DNA of 64,000 bases, from NCBI GenBank assembly GCA_021383565.1, contig CP079699.1, forward strand, positions 1,364,001 to 1,428,000. The letters are read 5' to 3'. Shown one piece after another: positions 7,274-57,710 of the stretch. Below the pieces are notes generated by a model. That model did no database searches, was not told the DNA's origin, and was given only the letters and a program-made list of their open reading frames with translations. Within the stretch, counting starts at the first letter, position 1; the number at the start of each line of letters is the position of its first letter. The stretch comes from Levilactobacillus brevis (GTDB taxonomy: Bacteria > Bacillota > Bacilli > Lactobacillales > Lactobacillaceae). The translations under genes and the position numbers were made by a program.

Positions 7274-7312
7274 CAGGTTACCGGTTGAACGACTGGCAAC
7301 CTGTTTTCTTTT
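7274..7312 (+). terminator. intrinsic terminator of pepD
   Basis: Stem CAGGTTACCGGT (7274-7285) with ACTGGCAACCTG (7292-7303), then TTTTCTTTT. Confidence 0.85.
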
Positions 7313-7317
7313 GCTAA

Positions 7318-7907
7318 CTAAAGGTTGAAAGCTAGAAAACAGCTAGAATCCGTAGTATGACAAAGGTACCAGCCACTATAATATGTTAGTCGCGTACTGG
7401 CCGCCTTGCCGTTCGCCAAATTTGGTCTGGATCGCGGTGGGAAGGACGGGCCAAGCCAAAGAACGGTCTTGTCCCTCGCTTTGAGCCGTCAGCCGCGTCT
7501 CAAAGACGCCATTTTCCAAGCAAAACACTTGGAAAATCCCACGGCTGAGACCAAATTTGACTCACTCACGGCTACCTGAGGGGTATTCAATTAAGCTACA
7601 TTGCCACTCCAGCGGTGTCACCACGCGTTCAACGGTTTTCATCCAGCGTAACTGGAGGCAGCCAGAGATGGAGGTAGCCGTGATAGCGGTGTTAGCTGTG
7701 CATCAGCTTACACCGCGGGACGTGTTTGGAGACTGGCGAATTTTGCCAGGCTCCAAACCGAGCCGGAGGACCGCTTCCCGGGCCGCAGGCGGTCCCCACA
7801 GCGCCGGAATCTCTGGCAGCCGCAGGTGGTGTTAATGGCTTGTTTAATGGCGATAAGCCTTGCCAGCTGGGGCTGGAATGTGTTCGCAAACTCTCAACCT
7901 TTAGTTG
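7318..7907 (+). repeat. large structured intergenic element, family 1, copy A
   Basis: Conserved core about 7401-7830 (plus orientation) with homologues at 41349-41791 (minus), 57193-57655 (plus) and a deleted remnant at 51629-51760. Outer flanks form imperfect inverted ends (ACTAAAGGTTGAAAG near 7318; CTCAACCTTTAGT near 7895). Predicted helices: P1 7417-7427/7549-7559 (11 bp); P2 7448-7455/7468-7475; P3 7479-7485/7499-7505; P4 7511-7520/7528-7537 (10 bp perfect); long-range P5 7566-7576/7673-7683 (11 bp perfect); then an AGCTG hairpin, a GTTTGGAG..CTCCAAAC double hairpin and a GGACCGC/GCGGTCC hairpin. Open frames here are short, differ between copies and are read as chance. Fold-preserving changes between copies suggest an RNA gene or a folded mobile DNA element. 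Confidence 0.8.
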
Positions 7908-7914
7908 CTAATCC

Positions 7915-7952: not shown

Positions 7953-9029
7953 TTAGAATTTCAATTCATACTCAAACTTTAACTTCTTGTAGTAATCCTG
8001 CTCAATAAAATCCGTGGGGCGTACCTCGCCGGGTTTCATCTCAAAGTAGGCCACTCCCGCTCGTTGGAGCATCGTGTAGACGAACTGGGAACAAAACATG
8101 ATGTTGGGCTTGGCCGAATGCTTCGACACCAACCCAATCATGTTGTAGGCGCTACCCTCACGGTTGATTTCGGCAATCTTGTCGATCACGAAGCGCTTCT
8201 GCACCACCGTCACCGGGAGACTGTAGACCAAAATCGAAGCCCCCGCTTTTTGGTGGAAGAACTCCAGCGTTTCCGCATTCATGCCGGGCGGATAGACGTT
8301 GTCGCCGCCGTTGTAGCTGATAATGGTTTCTAAGTCGCGATCAAAGGATAGCGAGACGTGGTTGAATTGTTTGCGCGTAAAGACCGAGATCATCTCGCTG
8401 GCCGCACTCCCCGTGTTGGACACGGCGAGGTACAGGTTGGTGTCGGGTAACGTGGCAGTCGCCGCCTCAAAATAGGCCGGCGTTAACGTCCCGTGATTGA
8501 TATAGTGCACGGCGCTATGCCGCGGGAGATCCTCGATAATCATTTTCACGTGAGCCACGGACACCTTATCCTTGGCCGCGGCCGCTCCGTTCAGCAGGTC
8601 GCTAAGCTTGTCGGCGCTTTGCCGGAGTTCATCGAAGCTCACCGTCGCCGCCTCTTCCACCGTGGGGAGGTAAAAGACCGTCTGATTATTGGTGGTCACG
8701 AAGCGCTCGACCCACAGCGGCAAGACGACCAGCATCACCCCAACCAATTTGCCGACGAAATACATCAGCGATGCACCGCGCAACGGAAAGACCGCTACCG
8801 AAATGAAGATGATCTGAATCACCATCAGTAACGTGTAGGCCACGGTCAGTCCAACCTTGGCGGCGTGAGGAAATTGGGCCAACCAGGTCCGCAAGACCAT
8901 TACCGCCGCCACGTACAGATACACAATAATCAGAATCGGTTGGTTGGCGAATAAATACAGACAGACCAGTAGAATCCAACCCATCCCCCGAATCTTGATG
9001 GATTGAAAATAAGCAATAACTTCGTTCAT
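7953..9029 (-). CDS. membrane protein with C-terminal permuted papain-like (YiiX/NlpC-P60-related) domain
   Basis: 358 residues. The first about 130 residues hold four to five hydrophobic segments (GMGWILLVCLYLFANQPILI, YLYVAAVMVLRTWL, VGLTVAYTLLMVIQIIFISV, FVGKLVGVMLVVLPLW). The C-terminal half carries the order seen in circularly permuted papain-like enzymes: a histidine in KQFNHVSLSFDRDL, then a cysteine in IMFCSQFVYTMLQRAGV. Such enzymes hydrolyse amide or ester bonds; the substrate here is unknown and could be cell-envelope linked because of the membrane anchor. The frame is open to 9062, but the ATG at 9029 has GGGAG at a proper distance. Single gene, closed by the terminator at 7915-7950. 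Confidence 0.7.
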   Translation of the reverse strand: MNEVIAYFQSIKIRGMGWILLVCLYLFANQPILIIVYLYVAAVMVLRTWLAQFPHAAKVGLTVAYTLLMVIQIIFISVAVFPLRGASLMYFVGKLVGVMLVVLPLWVERFVTTNNQTVFYLPTVEEAATVSFDELRQSADKLSDLLNGAAAAKDKVSVAHVKMIIEDLPRHSAVHYINHGTLTPAYFEAATATLPDTNLYLAVSNTGSAASEMISVFTRKQFNHVSLSFDRDLETIISYNGGDNVYPPGMNAETLEFFHQKAGASILVYSLPVTVVQKRFVIDKIAEINREGSAYNMIGLVSKHSAKPNIMFCSQFVYTMLQRAGVAYFEMKPGEVRPTDFIEQDYYKKLKFEYELKF

Positions 9030-9216
9030 GAAAAGTGGGTCTCCCATCTCGACCGATCCCATCCTGGCGGGGATACGGCTGATTTTGTCATGAAATTAGT
9101 ATACCATAGACGGCTCATTTGGTGCGGGGACTAAAAGCTGTTGCCCCCTGACCTTTCTCGGGCCTATTCGAAACTTCAACTTTTTTGGTAAAATCCTGCA
9201 ACAAATCCGTCAGAAA

Positions 9217-41109: not shown

Positions 41110-41348
41110 GCCAATCCCTCCTCGAATTAATGGGCTAATCAGTCATCCAAATCAGCAATCACTATGGCGTTCCGAGTTCCCGTACTCCCCCGTGGTGACC
41201 CGGATTAACCATAATAATTCGACTTTCAATTCTACACTTAATCCCCTTATAAATAAAGAAATGTGACCGGCTAAAGATTGAAAACTTGAAAACGCTGACT
41301 CATTCTCAACTGGTACAGTTTTGGGGGTATTAAATCACCTATTATGAT

Positions 41349-41791
41349 CCACCTACGGCAGTCAGAAATTCCGGGGCTGTGGGGACCGCCTGCGGCCTAA
41401 GAAGCGGTCCTCCGGCTCGGTTTGAAACCTAGCAAAATTCGCCAGTCTCCAAACACGTCCCGCGCTGTAAGCTGACTTAAGACGTCAGCTAACACCGCTG
41501 TCACGGCTACCGCCATCTCTGGCTGCCCCCGGTTACGCCGAGTGAAAGCCACTGAATGTGTGGAGTCATCGCTGGTGTGGCAACGTTTGGTCAGTTTAAT
41601 TGGATACATCCTCATGTAGCCGTGAGTGAATCAAATTTGGTCTCAGCCGTGGGATTTTCCAAGGGTTCTGCTTGGAAAATGGCGTCTTTGAGACGCGGGC
41701 TGACGGCTCAAAGCGAGGAACAAGACCGTTCTTTGGCTTGTCCCGTCCTGCCCACCGCGATCCAGACCAAATTTGGCGAACGGTAAGGCGG
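41349..41791 (-). repeat. large structured intergenic element, family 1, copy B
   Basis: Read on the minus strand this copy matches element A (7401-7830) throughout. The outer stem CAAATTTGGTC/GACCAAATTTG, the CTTTGAG/CTCAAAG hairpin, the ATTTTCCAAG hairpin (here opened by one base), the long-range TCACGGCTAC/GTAGCCGTGA stem and the GGACCGC/GCGGTCC hairpin are kept. The AGCTG hairpin is longer here: AGCTGAC/GTCAGCT. It lies between divergent helD and the antiporter gene. The remaining 240 bases to helD carry a CTAAAGATTGAAAAC end sequence near 41273 similar to the 3' end of element A. Confidence 0.8.
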
Positions 41792-45074: not shown

Positions 45075-46034
45075 TTATGACTTAATCAACGACGCTTCTT
45101 CCGCGCGTTGTCTGTACAACGACACCTCATCCTTCGCGGCGCGGACCCAGTGACGTGGGGAAATTTCGACTAAATGCCGTTCCTTACCGTCATTTTCACC
45201 ACTCCCGTCGTAGGCAATCTCTTCCCGTGTCCGTTCGAACTCTGGATCGGGCACTGGGACGGCCGACAGTAGACTCTTGGTGTAGTCGTGTAACGGATGG
45301 GCGTAAATTTCGTCAGCGTCAGCGATTTCTAACATCCGGCCGTAGTGCATCACCCCAATACGATCGGAGATGTACTTCACCATCGACAAGTCATGGGCGA
45401 TGAACAGGTACGTTAAGCCCTGTTCCCGTTGTAACTTCTTCATCAAGTTGACCACTTGGGCCTGAATCGACACGTCCAACGCGGAGATCGGTTCATCGGC
45501 AATCACGAACTTGGGGTTCACGGCTAACGCCCGGGCAATCCCGATCCGTTGCCGTTGCCCACCGGAGAACTCGTGAGGGTACCGGCTGGAGTGGTCCTTG
45601 TTCAGACCTACCGTTTCCAGCAAGTCCTCGACGCGTTTCGTCCGGTCGGCATCATCTTTGGCAAGGTGGTTGATATCAATCCCCTCGGCCACGATGTCCT
45701 TAACCTTCATCCGCGGATTCAGTGAAGCATACGGATCTTGGAAGATCATCTGCATCTCTTGACGAAAGTCATGTTGGTCCTGCTTACTGGTAAAGGAATC
45801 GACGTTCTTACCGTCAAACAAAATTTCACCAGAGGTTGGCTCGTACAGGTGAATAATCGCCCGGCCCGTCGTGGTTTTCCCTGACCCGGATTCACCAACT
45901 AAGCCAAAGGTTTCTCCCTTGTAGATGTCAAATGAAATGTCATCAACGGCGCGAACTTCATCAGCCTTGCCCACGTTGAAGTATTGCTTGAGGTGCTTGA
46001 CCTCGAGGATTTTTTCGGCATTTTCGTAATCCAT
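45075..46034 (-). CDS. oppF: oligopeptide ABC transporter ATP-binding protein OppF
   Basis: 319 residues. Walker A LVGESGSGKTTTGRAII, Q-loop region QMIFQDPYASLNPRM, signature FSGGQRQRIGIARAL, Walker B KFVIADEPISALDVSIQ and the H-loop YLFIAHDLSMV are all intact. With OppD it powers peptide import through OppBC. The N-terminal extension and the C-terminal oligopeptide/dipeptide domain (PHPYT-like HPLHDYTKSLLSAVPVPDP) assign it to OppF. The ATG at 46034 overlaps the oppD stop as TAATG. Last gene of the operon. Confidence 0.96.
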   Translation of the reverse strand: MDYENAEKILEVKHLKQYFNVGKADEVRAVDDISFDIYKGETFGLVGESGSGKTTTGRAIIHLYEPTSGEILFDGKNVDSFTSKQDQHDFRQEMQMIFQDPYASLNPRMKVKDIVAEGIDINHLAKDDADRTKRVEDLLETVGLNKDHSSRYPHEFSGGQRQRIGIARALAVNPKFVIADEPISALDVSIQAQVVNLMKKLQREQGLTYLFIAHDLSMVKYISDRIGVMHYGRMLEIADADEIYAHPLHDYTKSLLSAVPVPDPEFERTREEIAYDGSGENDGKERHLVEISPRHWVRAAKDEVSLYRQRAEEASLIKS

Positions 46035-49308: not shown

Positions 49309-50937
49309 TTATTTGGCAATGTATGCCTTACTGAAGTCCCAGTTAGCGCCGGTTGGGAAGTAAATTACACCCTTAACCTTGGACTTAACCAGTTGTGACT
49401 TCCCTTGTTGGTAAAGTGGGATGATCCCTTGTTCCTTCATCAACGTCTTTTCAGCGTTTACCATGTCATTCCACCGTGCGCTCTGGTTGTTGGCATCCTT
49501 GCCATCAGCAGCGGCGATGTCCTTGTCATAGGAACTGTTCTTCCATTGACCACGGTTGTATGAGTTGGTTGATGTGAACATTTCGAGGAAGGAAATAGCA
49601 TCTGGGTAATCAGCACCCCAGCCAGAAACTACGGCTTGGAATTGACCATTTTCAGAACGGCTCAACCGCGTCTTGAATGGTAAGTTGGAGTTGGTTACCT
49701 TGATGTTGCCCAGCTTAGACCATTGACTCTGTACGAATTCAGTGGCGTTCTTACCAGCTGGCGTGTCATCGGCCATCAAGGTTAAGTTGTAACTTGAACG
49801 ACCCGTTTCCTTCAAGGCTTCCTTCCACAGCTTCTTAGCCTTGGTTAAGTTCTGTGAGTAAGCTGAAGGTACAGCGGCTGCCGTCGTGAAGTCTTGACCC
49901 TTGTAGGTCGCTAATCCGGTGGAAACCAGACCCTTAGCTTGGGAAGAGCCATCGGCTAAGACCTTGTTAACGAATTGCTTCCGGTCAATGGCCAGTGATA
50001 AGGCTTGACGGGCCTTCTTGTTCTTCATCATACTGTCTTTCCGTTGGTTCAGTTCAATGTAGAAAGTCGAGGCCCCCTTACGTTCAACGTATTGCTTACT
50101 GTTCTTGTAGTTCTTTGGTTGTTGACCACTCAAGTAAGTTGCGTCCAGTTTACCACTCTGGTATTGACTCAGGGCAGTTTGTGGTTCCTTTATCGTCTTG
50201 AAGTTAATCTTCTTCAGTTTAACATTTTTGGCGTTCCAGTACTTAGTGTTTTTACTCAACGTCCAGTTATCAGAAGTCCCGGTCCAGTAAGTCAGCTTGA
50301 AGGGTCCGTTGTAAACGTTACTCTTGGCGTTCGTCGCGTACTTCTTACCGTACTTCTGAACGACTGATTGATCTTGTGGGAAGAACATTGGGCTGGCCGC
50401 TAAGGATGGGAAGTAGCTCGTAGCTTGTGTTAACGTGACGACTAACTTGTAGTTACCCTCTGCCTTAACCCCTAAGCTAGATACCGGCTTCTTACTCTTC
50501 ATGATTTCGTTGGCGTTCTTAACGGGCGCGTACATGTAAGCGTATTGTGAAGCGGTCTTAGGGTTGACGGTCCGTTGCCAGGCATACACGAAGTCTTTGG
50601 CAGTAACTTTATCACCGTTACTCCAGTTGGACTTCCGTAAGTTAAAGGTATAGGTCTTCCCGTCTTTAGAAACTTTATAGCTCTTGGCAACCCCAGGGTG
50701 AATGCTACTCTTCTTACCGAAGCGTAACAGACCTTCACCGGTGTTGTTTAAAGTTTCACCGGAAACCACGTCGGTTGCGGTGGAAGAATCCATGGATGGT
50801 AAGGCGGAACTTTCCATCCAGTTCAACGTTTGTTTACTTGCTTGACTGGAACTGCTCGACGATGACCCACACGCTGCGAGCAAGACTGCCGCGAACGTAG
50901 CCACCGTCCCGAGTTTGACTGCCGAATTGATTTTCAT
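49309..50937 (-). CDS. oppA: oligopeptide-binding lipoprotein OppA (operon copy)
   Basis: 542 residues. A lipoprotein signal ends in LLAACG with the lipidated Cys23. The SBP_bac_5 fold is evident (ATDVVSGETLNNTGEGLLRF, TYTFNLRKSNWSNGDKVTAK DFVYAW, LTLMADDTPAGKNATEFVQS). It captures peptides outside the membrane and delivers them to OppBC. First gene of oppABCDF. Promoter at 51003-51031. About 60-70% alike by eye to the two paralogues upstream, especially the N- and C-terminal blocks (KSKVKGVIYFPTGANWDFSK). Confidence 0.95.
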   Translation of the reverse strand: MKINSAVKLGTVATFAAVLLAACGSSSSSSSQASKQTLNWMESSALPSMDSSTATDVVSGETLNNTGEGLLRFGKKSSIHPGVAKSYKVSKDGKTYTFNLRKSNWSNGDKVTAKDFVYAWQRTVNPKTASQYAYMYAPVKNANEIMKSKKPVSSLGVKAEGNYKLVVTLTQATSYFPSLAASPMFFPQDQSVVQKYGKKYATNAKSNVYNGPFKLTYWTGTSDNWTLSKNTKYWNAKNVKLKKINFKTIKEPQTALSQYQSGKLDATYLSGQQPKNYKNSKQYVERKGASTFYIELNQRKDSMMKNKKARQALSLAIDRKQFVNKVLADGSSQAKGLVSTGLATYKGQDFTTAAAVPSAYSQNLTKAKKLWKEALKETGRSSYNLTLMADDTPAGKNATEFVQSQWSKLGNIKVTNSNLPFKTRLSRSENGQFQAVVSGWGADYPDAISFLEMFTSTNSYNRGQWKNSSYDKDIAAADGKDANNQSARWNDMVNAEKTLMKEQGIIPLYQQGKSQLVKSKVKGVIYFPTGANWDFSKAYIAK

Positions 50938-51863: not shown

Positions 51864-53489
51864 TTACTTCGCAACGTAAGCGCGGCTGTAATCCCAGTTC
51901 GCACCGACTGGAAAATAAACGACGCCCTTGACTTTAGACTTGACCAGCTGCGGCATCCCCGTTTGGTAAACTGGAATGATCCCTTGGTCCTTCAACAGAA
52001 CTTTCTGGGCATCCACCAGATTCTGCCACCGCGCACTTGGCCGGTTAGCATTCTTAATCGTGGCTTGGTCGATCAACTTGTCATAACTCTTGGAAGACCA
52101 TCTTCCGTTGTTGTAAGTATTGCCGGTCGTGAACAAGGACAGATCGGTGATTGGGTCTGGGAAGTCGGCACTCCAGCCACTGACGACAGCCTGGAATTGA
52201 CCATTCTGTGACCGAGACAACCGGGTCTTGTACGGAATATTCGAGTTCGTAACCTTGAAATTATCCAGCTTACTCCACTGGCTTTGAATGTACTCGGTCG
52301 CTGACTTACCGGCTGGCGTGTCATCGGCCAACAAGGTTAGGCTGTAACTCGTCCGCCCAGTCTCCTTCAGCGCCTGATTCCAAAGCTTTTGCGCCTTGGC
52401 TAGATTGTAAGAGGTTGCTGACGGAACGGTTGCTTCCTTGGCAAAGTCCTTACCATCACGAATAGCTAGCCCGGTCGACACAATCCCGGTAGCAGGCGTA
52501 GAGCCATCTTGTAAGACCTTATTGACGTATTGCTTTCTGTTCAGCACCATGGATAACGCCTGGCGAGCCTTAGTATTCTTCAGCATGGTATCCTTGCGCT
52601 GGTTCAGCTCAACGTAATTAATCCGGGAACTCTTACGTGAATGGAATTCCTTATCGTTCTTGTAGTTTTTCGGTTGTTGCCCACTCAGTGAGATAATATC
52701 CAGCTTACCACTCTGGTATTGACTGAGAGCGGTCTGGGGATCCTTAACGGCACTGTACTTGACGTGCTGAAGCTTAACAACCTTTGCGTTCCAGTACTTC
52801 TTATTCTTGGTCAGCGTCCAGTTGTCAGAGGTCCCGGACCAGGACGTCAACTTGAATGGCCCGTTGTAAACATTCTTCTGGGCGTTGCTGGCAAACTTAC
52901 TGCCATATTTCTCAACGGCCCCCTGATTAACGGGGTAGAAACATTGCTGCGCCACCAACGTCGGGAAGTAGCTGACGGGGTGGGCCAAAGTTACGACCAA
53001 CTTGTAGTCGCCATCCTGCTTGACGCCTAACGTCGACGGGGCTTTCTTCCCGTTCATAATCGCATTAGCATTTTGAATGTCAGCGTACAGGTAGGCGTAC
53101 TGGGAACTGGTCTTTGGCGCAATGGTTCGCCGCCAAGAGTAGACGAAGTCATGTGCCGTCAGCTTTTCACCATTACTCCACTGAGATTTACGCAGGTTAA
53201 ACGTGTAGGTCAACCCGTCCTTAGACTTGTGGTAGCTCTTTGCCAACCCCGGTAAGGTTTTGCTATTTTTACCGAAACGCAACAAGCCCTCACCCGTATT
53301 GTTTAGTGTCTCACCGGAAATAATATCCGTCGCCTTGGCATTATCCATCGAAGATAGCGCCGAGGTCTCCATCACGTGAATCGTTTGATCCTTGGCCTCG
53401 TTGGTCTTTGAGCTGGTTCCGCACGCTGCTAACGCTAGCGTCGCGATGCCGGCCACCGCACCTAATTTGGCAATTGATTTAATCCTCAT
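51864..53489 (-). CDS. oligopeptide-binding lipoprotein, OppA paralogue 2
   Basis: 541 residues. Lipobox LALAACG with Cys23, full SBP_bac_5 domain (TDIISGETLNNTGEGLLRFG, LTYTFNLRKSQWSNGEKLTA, LTLLADDTPAGKSATEYIQS). No permease or ATPase genes follow it; it probably shares the OppBCDF channel with a different peptide preference (inference from family). Own promoter at 53543-53571 and own terminator at 51764-51802. More basic and with a different central part from oppA1. Confidence 0.93.
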   Translation of the reverse strand: MRIKSIAKLGAVAGIATLALAACGTSSKTNEAKDQTIHVMETSALSSMDNAKATDIISGETLNNTGEGLLRFGKNSKTLPGLAKSYHKSKDGLTYTFNLRKSQWSNGEKLTAHDFVYSWRRTIAPKTSSQYAYLYADIQNANAIMNGKKAPSTLGVKQDGDYKLVVTLAHPVSYFPTLVAQQCFYPVNQGAVEKYGSKFASNAQKNVYNGPFKLTSWSGTSDNWTLTKNKKYWNAKVVKLQHVKYSAVKDPQTALSQYQSGKLDIISLSGQQPKNYKNDKEFHSRKSSRINYVELNQRKDTMLKNTKARQALSMVLNRKQYVNKVLQDGSTPATGIVSTGLAIRDGKDFAKEATVPSATSYNLAKAQKLWNQALKETGRTSYSLTLLADDTPAGKSATEYIQSQWSKLDNFKVTNSNIPYKTRLSRSQNGQFQAVVSGWSADFPDPITDLSLFTTGNTYNNGRWSSKSYDKLIDQATIKNANRPSARWQNLVDAQKVLLKDQGIIPVYQTGMPQLVKSKVKGVVYFPVGANWDYSRAYVAK

Positions 53490-53762: not shown

Positions 53763-55391
53763 TTATTTACCAATGTAAGCCCGGCTGAAGTCCCAGTTCG
53801 AGCTGACAGGGAAGTAAATGACCCCTTTAACCTTAGACTTCACCAGTTGTGGCTTCCCACTTTGAGAAACCGGAATGATCCCTTGGTCTTTCAATAAGAT
53901 CTTTTGGGCATCAATCAGGTTTTGCCAACGGGCAGCTGGCTTATTGGCATTCGTGGTCGTGGCCTCGTTAATCAGCTTGTCGTAAGTCTTGTTCGACCAC
54001 TTCCCGTTGTTGTAGGAGTTATCGGACGTGAACAACGACAGATCGGTGATTGGGTCTGGGAAGTCGGCGCCCCAGAGCGTGACGACAGCATCAAATTGGC
54101 CAGACGCAGACCGTGACAACCGGGTCTTGTATGGCAAATTAGAGTTGGTGACCTTGAAGTTATCCAGCTTGGACCACTGACTCTGAACGTATTCGGTCGT
54201 ACTCTTCCCTTGCGCCGTATCATCGGCCATCAAGGTCAGCGAGTAGCTCTTCCGGCCCGTTTCCTTCAAAGCTTCCTTCCACAACTTCTGTGCCTTGGCG
54301 ACGTTGTGTTCCGTTGCGGCTGGGATCGTGCCTTCCTTGGCAAAGTCCTTACCGTTACGGATGGCTAAGCCGCTGGTGACGATTCCCGTAGCAACCTTAG
54401 AACCATCGTCCATCACCTTGTTGACGAATTGCTTCCGGTTCAAGACCAGAGACAAGGCTTGCCGGGCCTTTCGGTTCCGCATCATTGAATCTTTCTTTTC
54501 GTTTAATTCGATGTACGTTACCCGAGAGCTGTTCCGGGCATGGTAATCCTTATTGTTCTTGTAGTTCTTCGGCTGTTGGCCACTCAGGTAAATCGCGTCG
54601 AGCTTGCCACTCTGGTATTGGCTCAAAGCCGTCTGTGGGTCCTTGACCGCACTGAACTTAATTTGATGGAGCTTAACCTTCTTGGCATCCCAGTACTTGC
54701 TGTTCTTCGTCAGCGTCCAGTTGTCAGACGTCCCCGTCCAGTACGTCAGCTTGAAGGCCCCGTTGTAGACGTTGTTCTTGGCATTCGTGGCGTACTTCTT
54801 GCCGTACTTCTTCACAACCGTTTCATTTTGAGGGAAGAAGGCCGTTTGGGCCACTAAGGTTGGGAAGTAGCTGACAGGATGAACCAAGGTGACTTTGACC
54901 TTGTAATCCCCAACTGCCTTGATCCCCAGCGTGGAGACGGGCTTCTTCCCCTTCATAATGGCGTTGGCGTTCTGGACATCCGCGTACAGGTAGGCGTATT
55001 GAGACCCCGTCTTCGGGTTGACCGTGCGTTGCCAGCCGTAAACAAAGTCTTGAGCGGTCACTTTATCGCCGTTACTCCAGTTGGACTTCCGCAGGTTAAA
55101 CGTGTACGTCTTCCCGTCTTTAGATTTGGTGTAGCTCTTGGCTACGCCGGGATGGGTGCTACTATTTTTTCCAAACTTCAGTAACCCTTCACCCGTATTG
55201 TTCAACGTTTCACCGGAAACCACATCGGTGGCCAACGAATTATCCATCGTTGGTAAGGTAGAACTTTCCATCCAATTCAAAGTTTGGTTCTTAGCTTGCT
55301 TGTTACTACTTGAAGACGTGCCACATGCGGCTAACGAAATCGCTGCTAGCGTGGCCACCGTCCCTAATTTGACGATTGACTTAACCTTCAT
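53763..55391 (-). CDS. oligopeptide-binding lipoprotein, OppA paralogue 3
   Basis: 542 residues. Lipobox ISLAACG with Cys23 and full SBP_bac_5 domain (ATDVVSGETLNNTGEGLLKF, LTLMADDTAQGKSTTEYVQS, KSKVKGVIYFPVSSNWDFSR). Closest in the N-terminus to oppA1 (LNWMESSTLPTMDNSLATDV) and in the C-terminus to oppA2 (ADFPDPITDLSLFT), a mosaic pattern. Own promoter (55510-55538) and terminator. Expected to serve the same OppBCDF. Confidence 0.93.
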   Translation of the reverse strand: MKVKSIVKLGTVATLAAISLAACGTSSSSNKQAKNQTLNWMESSTLPTMDNSLATDVVSGETLNNTGEGLLKFGKNSSTHPGVAKSYTKSKDGKTYTFNLRKSNWSNGDKVTAQDFVYGWQRTVNPKTGSQYAYLYADVQNANAIMKGKKPVSTLGIKAVGDYKVKVTLVHPVSYFPTLVAQTAFFPQNETVVKKYGKKYATNAKNNVYNGAFKLTYWTGTSDNWTLTKNSKYWDAKKVKLHQIKFSAVKDPQTALSQYQSGKLDAIYLSGQQPKNYKNNKDYHARNSSRVTYIELNEKKDSMMRNRKARQALSLVLNRKQFVNKVMDDGSKVATGIVTSGLAIRNGKDFAKEGTIPAATEHNVAKAQKLWKEALKETGRKSYSLTLMADDTAQGKSTTEYVQSQWSKLDNFKVTNSNLPYKTRLSRSASGQFDAVVTLWGADFPDPITDLSLFTSDNSYNNGKWSNKTYDKLINEATTTNANKPAARWQNLIDAQKILLKDQGIIPVSQSGKPQLVKSKVKGVIYFPVSSNWDFSRAYIGK

Positions 55392-57189: not shown

Positions 57190-57192
57190 CAT

Positions 57193-57655
57193 CCGCCTTC
57201 CGTTCGCAAAATATGAGCTGGATCGCGGTGGGGAGGACGCCCCGAGCCTGAGGAGCGGTCTCGGGACTCGCTTGGAACCGCCAAAGACCGGCGTTTCCAA
57301 GTCGCCATTCCCTAACCGGCTTGACCCGCCGCTAAGGGAATCCCACGGCTGAGCTCATATTTTGCTTCACTCACGGCTACGATAGCTTTTACCACGGATT
57401 TGGGTGCTGTAGCTCGCCAGCTCGTAACGTGCTTCCAGCTTATCTGACGTTCAGTGCCCTCACCGTCAATGCCGGAGGAGGCCAGTAATGGAGCCAGCCG
57501 TGACAACGGTGTTAGCTGGCGTATTCTGCCAGCTTAGACCGTGGGACGCCTTGAGAGACTGTCGGGCTTTGACAGGCTTTCAAGCGAGCTGGAAGACCGC
57601 TCTTTGTCTGGAAGCGGTCCCCACAGCAGGCGGAATTGCTGGCAGCCGCAGGCAT
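57193..57655 (+). repeat. large structured intergenic element, family 1, copy C (diverged)
   Basis: Same order of helices as copies A and B but with different paired bases: P1 GCAAAATATGAGC/GCTCATATTTTGC (57206-57218/57353-57365, 13 bp perfect); P2 CCCGAG/CTCGGG (57241-57246/57260-57265); P3 CTTGGAA/TTCCAAG (57271-57277/57295-57301); P4 ATTCCCT/AGGGAAT (57307-57313/57335-57341); long-range TCACGGCT/AGCCGTGA (57371-57378/57496-57503); AGCTGGC/GCCAGCT; CTTGAGAG..CTGTC/GACAG..CTTTCAAG (57550-57584). The joining segments TGGATCGCGGTGG, ATCCCACGGCTGAG, ACTCACGGCTAC and GCGGTCCCCACAGC are conserved. Confidence 0.85.
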
Positions 57656-57710
57656 AGTGGCATGGGGACGCTGAACGGCAGGCGGAATGCTTAGGACTAC
57701 CGTAAAAGGA

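Follow-up and report, generated by a model that had tools for sequence, protein, structure and literature searches.

A MITE-like repeat of Levilactobacillus brevis with an interior fold kept by compensatory change

The window analysed here, a stretch of 64,000 nt from Levilactobacillus brevis (CP079699.1, positions 1,364,001 to 1,428,000), carries three copies, A, B and C, of a structured intergenic repeat. All three lie where a first-pass annotation had placed them, and the ordered helices that it described are common to all, with stems that vary in step. The boundaries that it gave for copy A (7401-7830) proved too narrow. Copy A is 587 bp long (7318-7904) and is bounded by the terminal inverted repeats CTAAAGGTTGAAAG/CTTTCAACCTTTAG, the left one (7318-7331, + strand) recognised by flank comparison and the right one (7891-7904, - strand) bearing one mismatch; TTGCTAA stands on both sides as a target-site duplication (7311-7317 and 7905-7911), which brings the whole to 7311-7911. 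Inside are a 5' module (7401-7578; covariance model R1 on the + strand, outward-reading strand -), a variable spacer (7579-7645) and a 3' module (7646-7830; model R2, outward-reading strand +); the latter is a homologue of the 5' module in reverse complement. A weak candidate promoter hexamer, TATAAT (7377-7382, + strand), is found about 20 nt ahead of the 5' module. An ORF of 92 aa within the copy (7557-7835) has no Pfam match and full-length copies vary from 396 to 469 nt, so that a protein, which the first-pass annotation had ruled out, is an unlikely explanation. The gene adjoining copy A encodes 369 aa (7953-9062, - strand), likewise without a Pfam match, and its DNA sits beside a peptidase C69 gene in several congeners.

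Copy B is placed in the other orientation, with its 3' module at 41348-41538 (- strand; genome positions 1405348-1405538) and its 5' module at 41613-41791 (R1 on the - strand, outward strand +). The terminal repeat at its 3' end (41271-41284, + strand) is decayed and, with two mismatches, is not above chance when taken alone; its position agrees with the alignment of the copies. Copy C has its 5' module at 57192-57383 (R1 on the + strand, outward strand -) and its 3' module at 57466-57656 (+ strand), and the outer CTAAAGG repeats are absent. The start of this copy, CCGCCTTCCGTTCGC (57193-57207, + strand), recurs inverted at the other end as GCTGAACGGCAGGCGG (57670-57685, + strand), an arrangement that is shared by the C-type copies (57193-57685 here, and loci L090 and L091) and that could possibly represent a second set of terminal repeats. 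Elsewhere in the window, three tandem oligopeptide-binding paralogues (SBP_bac_5; 49309-50937, 51864-53489 and 53763-55391, - strand) are adjoined by an ABC-transporter ATPase gene with an oligopeptide-transporter C-terminal domain (45075-46034).

The repeat is far more abundant than the three copies first counted. One covariance model was made of the 5' half (R1) and another of the 3' half (R2), and they find 173 modules in the host genome, mostly paired, which together make up 30.7 kb or 1.2% of the main contig. With copy A as query, the same genome gave 44 matches, 40 of them long copies (76-94% identity) or copy A itself. A sequence search detected the element in 27 of 59 relatives, all Levilactobacillus. 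R1 matches 34 of 36 Levilactobacillus genomes, and R2 matches 67 of 350 Lactobacillaceae genomes and 8 of 40 genera; modules are thus present in seven genera of the family besides Levilactobacillus, in numbers per genome that range from a few to at least 128 (genome G109). Across the order, R2 matched 16 of 395 genomes. Two marginal single matches (G483 and G615, E about 1e-7) fall outside the Lactobacillaceae.

When the 5' half is aligned with the reverse complement of the 3' half, 75-80% of the aligned positions are identical and the alignment exceeds dinucleotide shuffles by z scores of 3.6-9.6, whereas the direct orientation does no better than shuffles. In other genera, R1 and R2 match identical stretches on opposite strands. 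The two halves are therefore homologous once either is reverse-complemented, and comparison of the sequences supports well an element made of two homologous modules of about 185-190 nt set back to back in inverted orientation, in place of the single ordered set of helices on one strand that had been described. Module pairs with a spacer below 500 nt are all divergent, bar one overlapping double match. Spacers in the pairs of the host genome are mostly 54-104 nt, and one divergent pair (C1:406152-406526) has a spacer of 5 nt. Genome G109 of genus g32 has spacers of about 333 nt, each with its own central inverted repeat, and the outer stems of its pairs are unrelated by sequence yet fully paired. 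One locus of this genome (L371, G109:C53:44600-47200) carries a direct tandem of three modules (45427, 45788 and 46147) spaced by about 360 bp, which differs from the divergent arrangement; the same spacing recurs on contig C61. Genera g21 and g37 frequently have solitary modules.

Each module folds into a cross-shaped structure with a long outer stem, a GTGGG/CCCAC stem and three arms, and several results support well that this fold is under selection. In Levilactobacillus sets of 19 and 20 non-redundant sequences for the two halves, 96% of cells are paired and both sides have changed in 23 of 47 and 26 of 58 pairs, values reached by none of 500 shuffles; shifting the partner by one column lowers pairing to 38-51%. 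Within the host genome, paired sites change at 0.29 (5') and 0.56 (3') times the rate of unpaired ones, and 29 (5') and 95 (3') double changes keep the pair, where independent change of the two sides would lead one to expect 2.0 and 12.4 double changes. Covariation was assessed with a tree-aware test of our own design, modelled on R-scape, in which mutations are re-placed on the tree and pairs are scored by an APC-corrected G-test. The in-step changes first noticed among three copies are borne out with this larger sample: 88 modules from other genera gave 44 significant covarying pairs, of which 37 lie inside the structure of 58 pairs and the other 7 lengthen its helices. When the same modules were aligned by sequence only, 20 pairs remained significant, 11 of which belong to a computed consensus; by column position, the remaining 9 fall within those same helices or next to them. 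The 89 full-length Levilactobacillus copies alone yielded one significant pair, in the outer stem, since the test has little power on this set. In at least eight genera of lactic acid bacteria, matching mutations have thus preserved the fold. Of the original observation, the covariation stands, and the boundaries, the copy count and the single-strand helix set have had to be replaced.

Which strand folds was addressed by computing structures without G.U pairs, so that neither strand was favoured beforehand, and then counting G.U against A.C cells. Read in the outward sense, the modules have 118 G.U to 47 A.C cells, and the direction is the same in all eight groups. The 3' modules of the host (30:9) and the modules of g37 (18:2) are each significant alone; the 5' modules alone (21:15 and 16:9) have no significant strand preference. 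Because cells are not phylogenetically independent, the p-value of the G.U excess overstates the evidence, and the agreement of the eight groups is the sturdier fact. Counts on Infernal-fitted alignments, in which G.U was favoured in both senses, were dropped. The excess argues that selection acts on the outward strand as it folds single-stranded, and against a role confined to double-stranded DNA; this is clear for the 3' and solitary modules and weak for the 5' modules. It fits RNA and single-stranded DNA alike.

The flanks show that what moved was the whole unit enclosed by terminal repeats, and mobility is well supported. In the flanks of different copies CTAAAGGTTGAAAG recurs on one side and its inverse on the opposite side, and target duplications of 7-8 nt border 16 of 21 clean copies bounded by terminal repeats, versus 3.1% in a swapped-flank control. 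At the locus of copy A, the intergenic region of one relative (L464) is empty, two others (L463 and L467) carry other insertions, and the closest (L462) holds a decayed remnant in opposite orientation. Tracts of at least five T adjoin 12 of the 28 listed boundary pairs, a number that includes a few double countings, where the T5 frequency of the whole window is 4.7% per 30 nt; all are directed into the element and none the opposite way, as if elements often land directly behind intrinsic terminators. By approximate, ORF-based counts, 121 of 374 elements lie between convergent ORFs, versus 302 of 1457 for consecutive ORFs generally, and positions between divergent ORFs are rarer than for consecutive ORFs generally. 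The first-pass annotation had set a mobile repeat against a structured RNA. Half of that opposition holds: the element does have terminal repeats and target duplications, but its covariation is genuine all the same.

No autonomous relative with the same ends was found among the terminal-repeat-bearing loci of the genome or the ORFs beside 497 elements, nor was a transposase-like ORF family seen beside the elements, the adjoining ORFs being ordinary host genes. Solitary terminal repeats, considered as a possible autonomous form, led only to genes of the host, to remnants or to an IS3-type element inserted later. The latter, a transposon with two overlapping ORFs, sits inside one copy near its position 129 (L038 724-2861; C1:812023-814160), and as a later insertion it does not count as a transposase gene of the repeat.

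Solitary modules suggest a further role. In genus g37, where copies are few, five species have such a module downstream of a yhgE-like gene and three have one downstream of an adhE-like gene, the names being our reading of the sequences. The yhgE-like neighbour is 78-91% identical across the five species, and in its set of modules 20 of 68 pairs vary while 326 of 338 cells are still paired. Gene conversion could imitate such compensation in place, and the low copy number in g37 makes it less likely. Since solitary modules are retained in low-copy genera, the module probably also acts where it stands, the simplest possibility being a structured RNA at the 3' ends of genes.

Searches for a promoter and for known relatives add the following. 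Copies in the host genome retain the TATAAT ahead of the 5' module; it has no good -35 element and is absent from the module flanks of the other species examined, and no conserved promoter for the modules was found. Divergent promoters within the spacer are unlikely, because spacers of just 5-25 nt in some pairs leave no room for two of them, and this weakens the RNA reading. The comparison with large RNAs proposed by the first-pass annotation gave no Rfam match at gathering threshold (GOLLD, ROOL, OLE, raiA and other families), and the sole match in the most permissive scan, SNORA84, is a chance one. The element has no match in the phage, plasmid and viral-contig collections, in line with the earlier remark that it is not linked to phages or tRNAs, and no description of it was found in the literature searched.

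Taken together, A, B and C are probably copies of a non-autonomous, MITE-like DNA transposon whose interior, two inverted homologous modules of about 185 nt, is highly unusual. The 7-8 bp target duplications suggest a DDE-type enzyme. We infer that a transposase supplied in trans would cut at the terminal repeats and that the folded outward strand would make a copy successful, RNA being a likelier form for it than single-stranded DNA; in low-copy genera, where solitary modules have been retained, the module probably has a role in place as well. The element itself is classed as a MITE-like repeat with a conserved interior that has no match in the collections searched. Several facts count against the transposon reading: the compensation in place in g37 is unexpected of a purely selfish, decaying MITE, the 5' modules alone show no significant strand preference, and the autonomous relative was not found. 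A bolder proposal, which we put forward tentatively and hold to be somewhat doubtful, is a new class of structured RNA or single-stranded DNA in the Lactobacillaceae, in which the transposon ends would each encode an outward-folding junction molecule of about 190 nt needed for movement, in trans or in cis, and single modules would have been domesticated at gene 3' ends.

Other explanations were weighed against the MITE-like transposon. It seems rather unlikely that the modules are transposon ends recognised by the transposase as folded single-stranded DNA or extruded cruciforms, with no RNA involved. The inverted pair does resemble complex ends and the outward strands have their 3' ends facing the ends of the element; DNA hairpins also tolerate G.T better than A.C. 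Solitary modules conserved in place and terminal repeats 60-80 nt outside the modules speak against such folded ends. Also unlikely is a functional noncoding RNA, structured and about 190 nt long in each module, that the host maintains; its spread through genomes would then be secondary, and the high-copy forms would descend from an RNA gene as mobile derivatives. Such an RNA would accord with the covariation across genera, the G.U excess of the outward strand, and the compensated changes behind the same gene in five g37 species, but it is hard to reconcile with the lack of a conserved promoter, the highly variable copy number and the insertion polymorphism at the locus of copy A.

The one large RNA of 430-460 nt that was originally proposed we consider very improbable. 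The + strand of copy A gives a much better fold than its shuffles do (z -7.4) and the TATAAT lies upstream in the copies of the host genome, but the - strand folds equally well (z -6.2), the halves are inverted homologues, modules stand singly in other genera, and wobble pairs favour the outward strand of each module, that is, opposite strands for the two halves, with no preference for the + strand in the 5' modules. A structured nucleic acid under selection is thus the part of the initial interpretation that survives. An RNA-guided element (TnpB/IscB omega-RNA or bridge-RNA-like) is exceedingly improbable, for although a TnpB-type guide scaffold would fit an outward structured RNA at a transposon end, modules occur at 2 of 26 TnpB loci only, G109 with its modules has no TnpB match, so that linkage to TnpB is rejected, and the absence of excess matches between the interior of the element and its own flanks means that there is no guide signature.

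A fold of about 60 pairs, kept by compensatory change over many genera and without a match in the collections or literature searched, makes this element a natural test of how selection maintains structure in mobile DNA. If the folded strand is RNA, it would constitute a new high-copy RNA family; if it is DNA, a new kind of structured transposon end. The models also allow the annotation of noncoding DNA in many food and probiotic bacteria.

Among known systems, the pneumococcal BOX, RUP and SPRITE repeats are likewise structured, intergenic, of high copy number and found in Firmicutes; they differ in size and architecture. IS200/IS605 elements insert without target duplication, unlike the element described here, and the linked gene that marks HEARO and TnpB omega-RNAs is missing as far as TnpB is concerned. 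Like GOLLD, ROOL, OLE and HEARO, the element is large, structured and covarying, and some of these RNAs also occur in Lactobacillales (GOLLD, ROOL and OLE: PMC12286853); unlike them, it has no Rfam match at gathering threshold. REP, BIME and REPIN sequences (PMC3733652, PMC3116915) are intergenic and palindromic, often in inverted pairs and enriched between convergent genes, and our element shares these features. PMC3733652 gives REPs a length of 20-40 bp, and a palindrome of that size is not what is seen here: the modules are of about 185 nt with a junction, and target duplications and terminal repeats are present. The enzyme that mobilises REP and REPIN palindromes is a RAYT (Y1) transposase. 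MITEs provide the closest likeness. They lack a transposase gene, have terminal inverted repeats and short target duplications, and are intergenic, present in many copies and able to form stable stem-loops (PMC10969869), a review that makes no mention of lactobacilli, covariation or compensatory change. The element agrees in all of these features (copy A contains no gene, and copy C lacks the outer pair of repeats). It departs from MITEs in its interior of two inverted modules of about 185 nt, with a multi-helix covarying fold that extends over at least eight genera.
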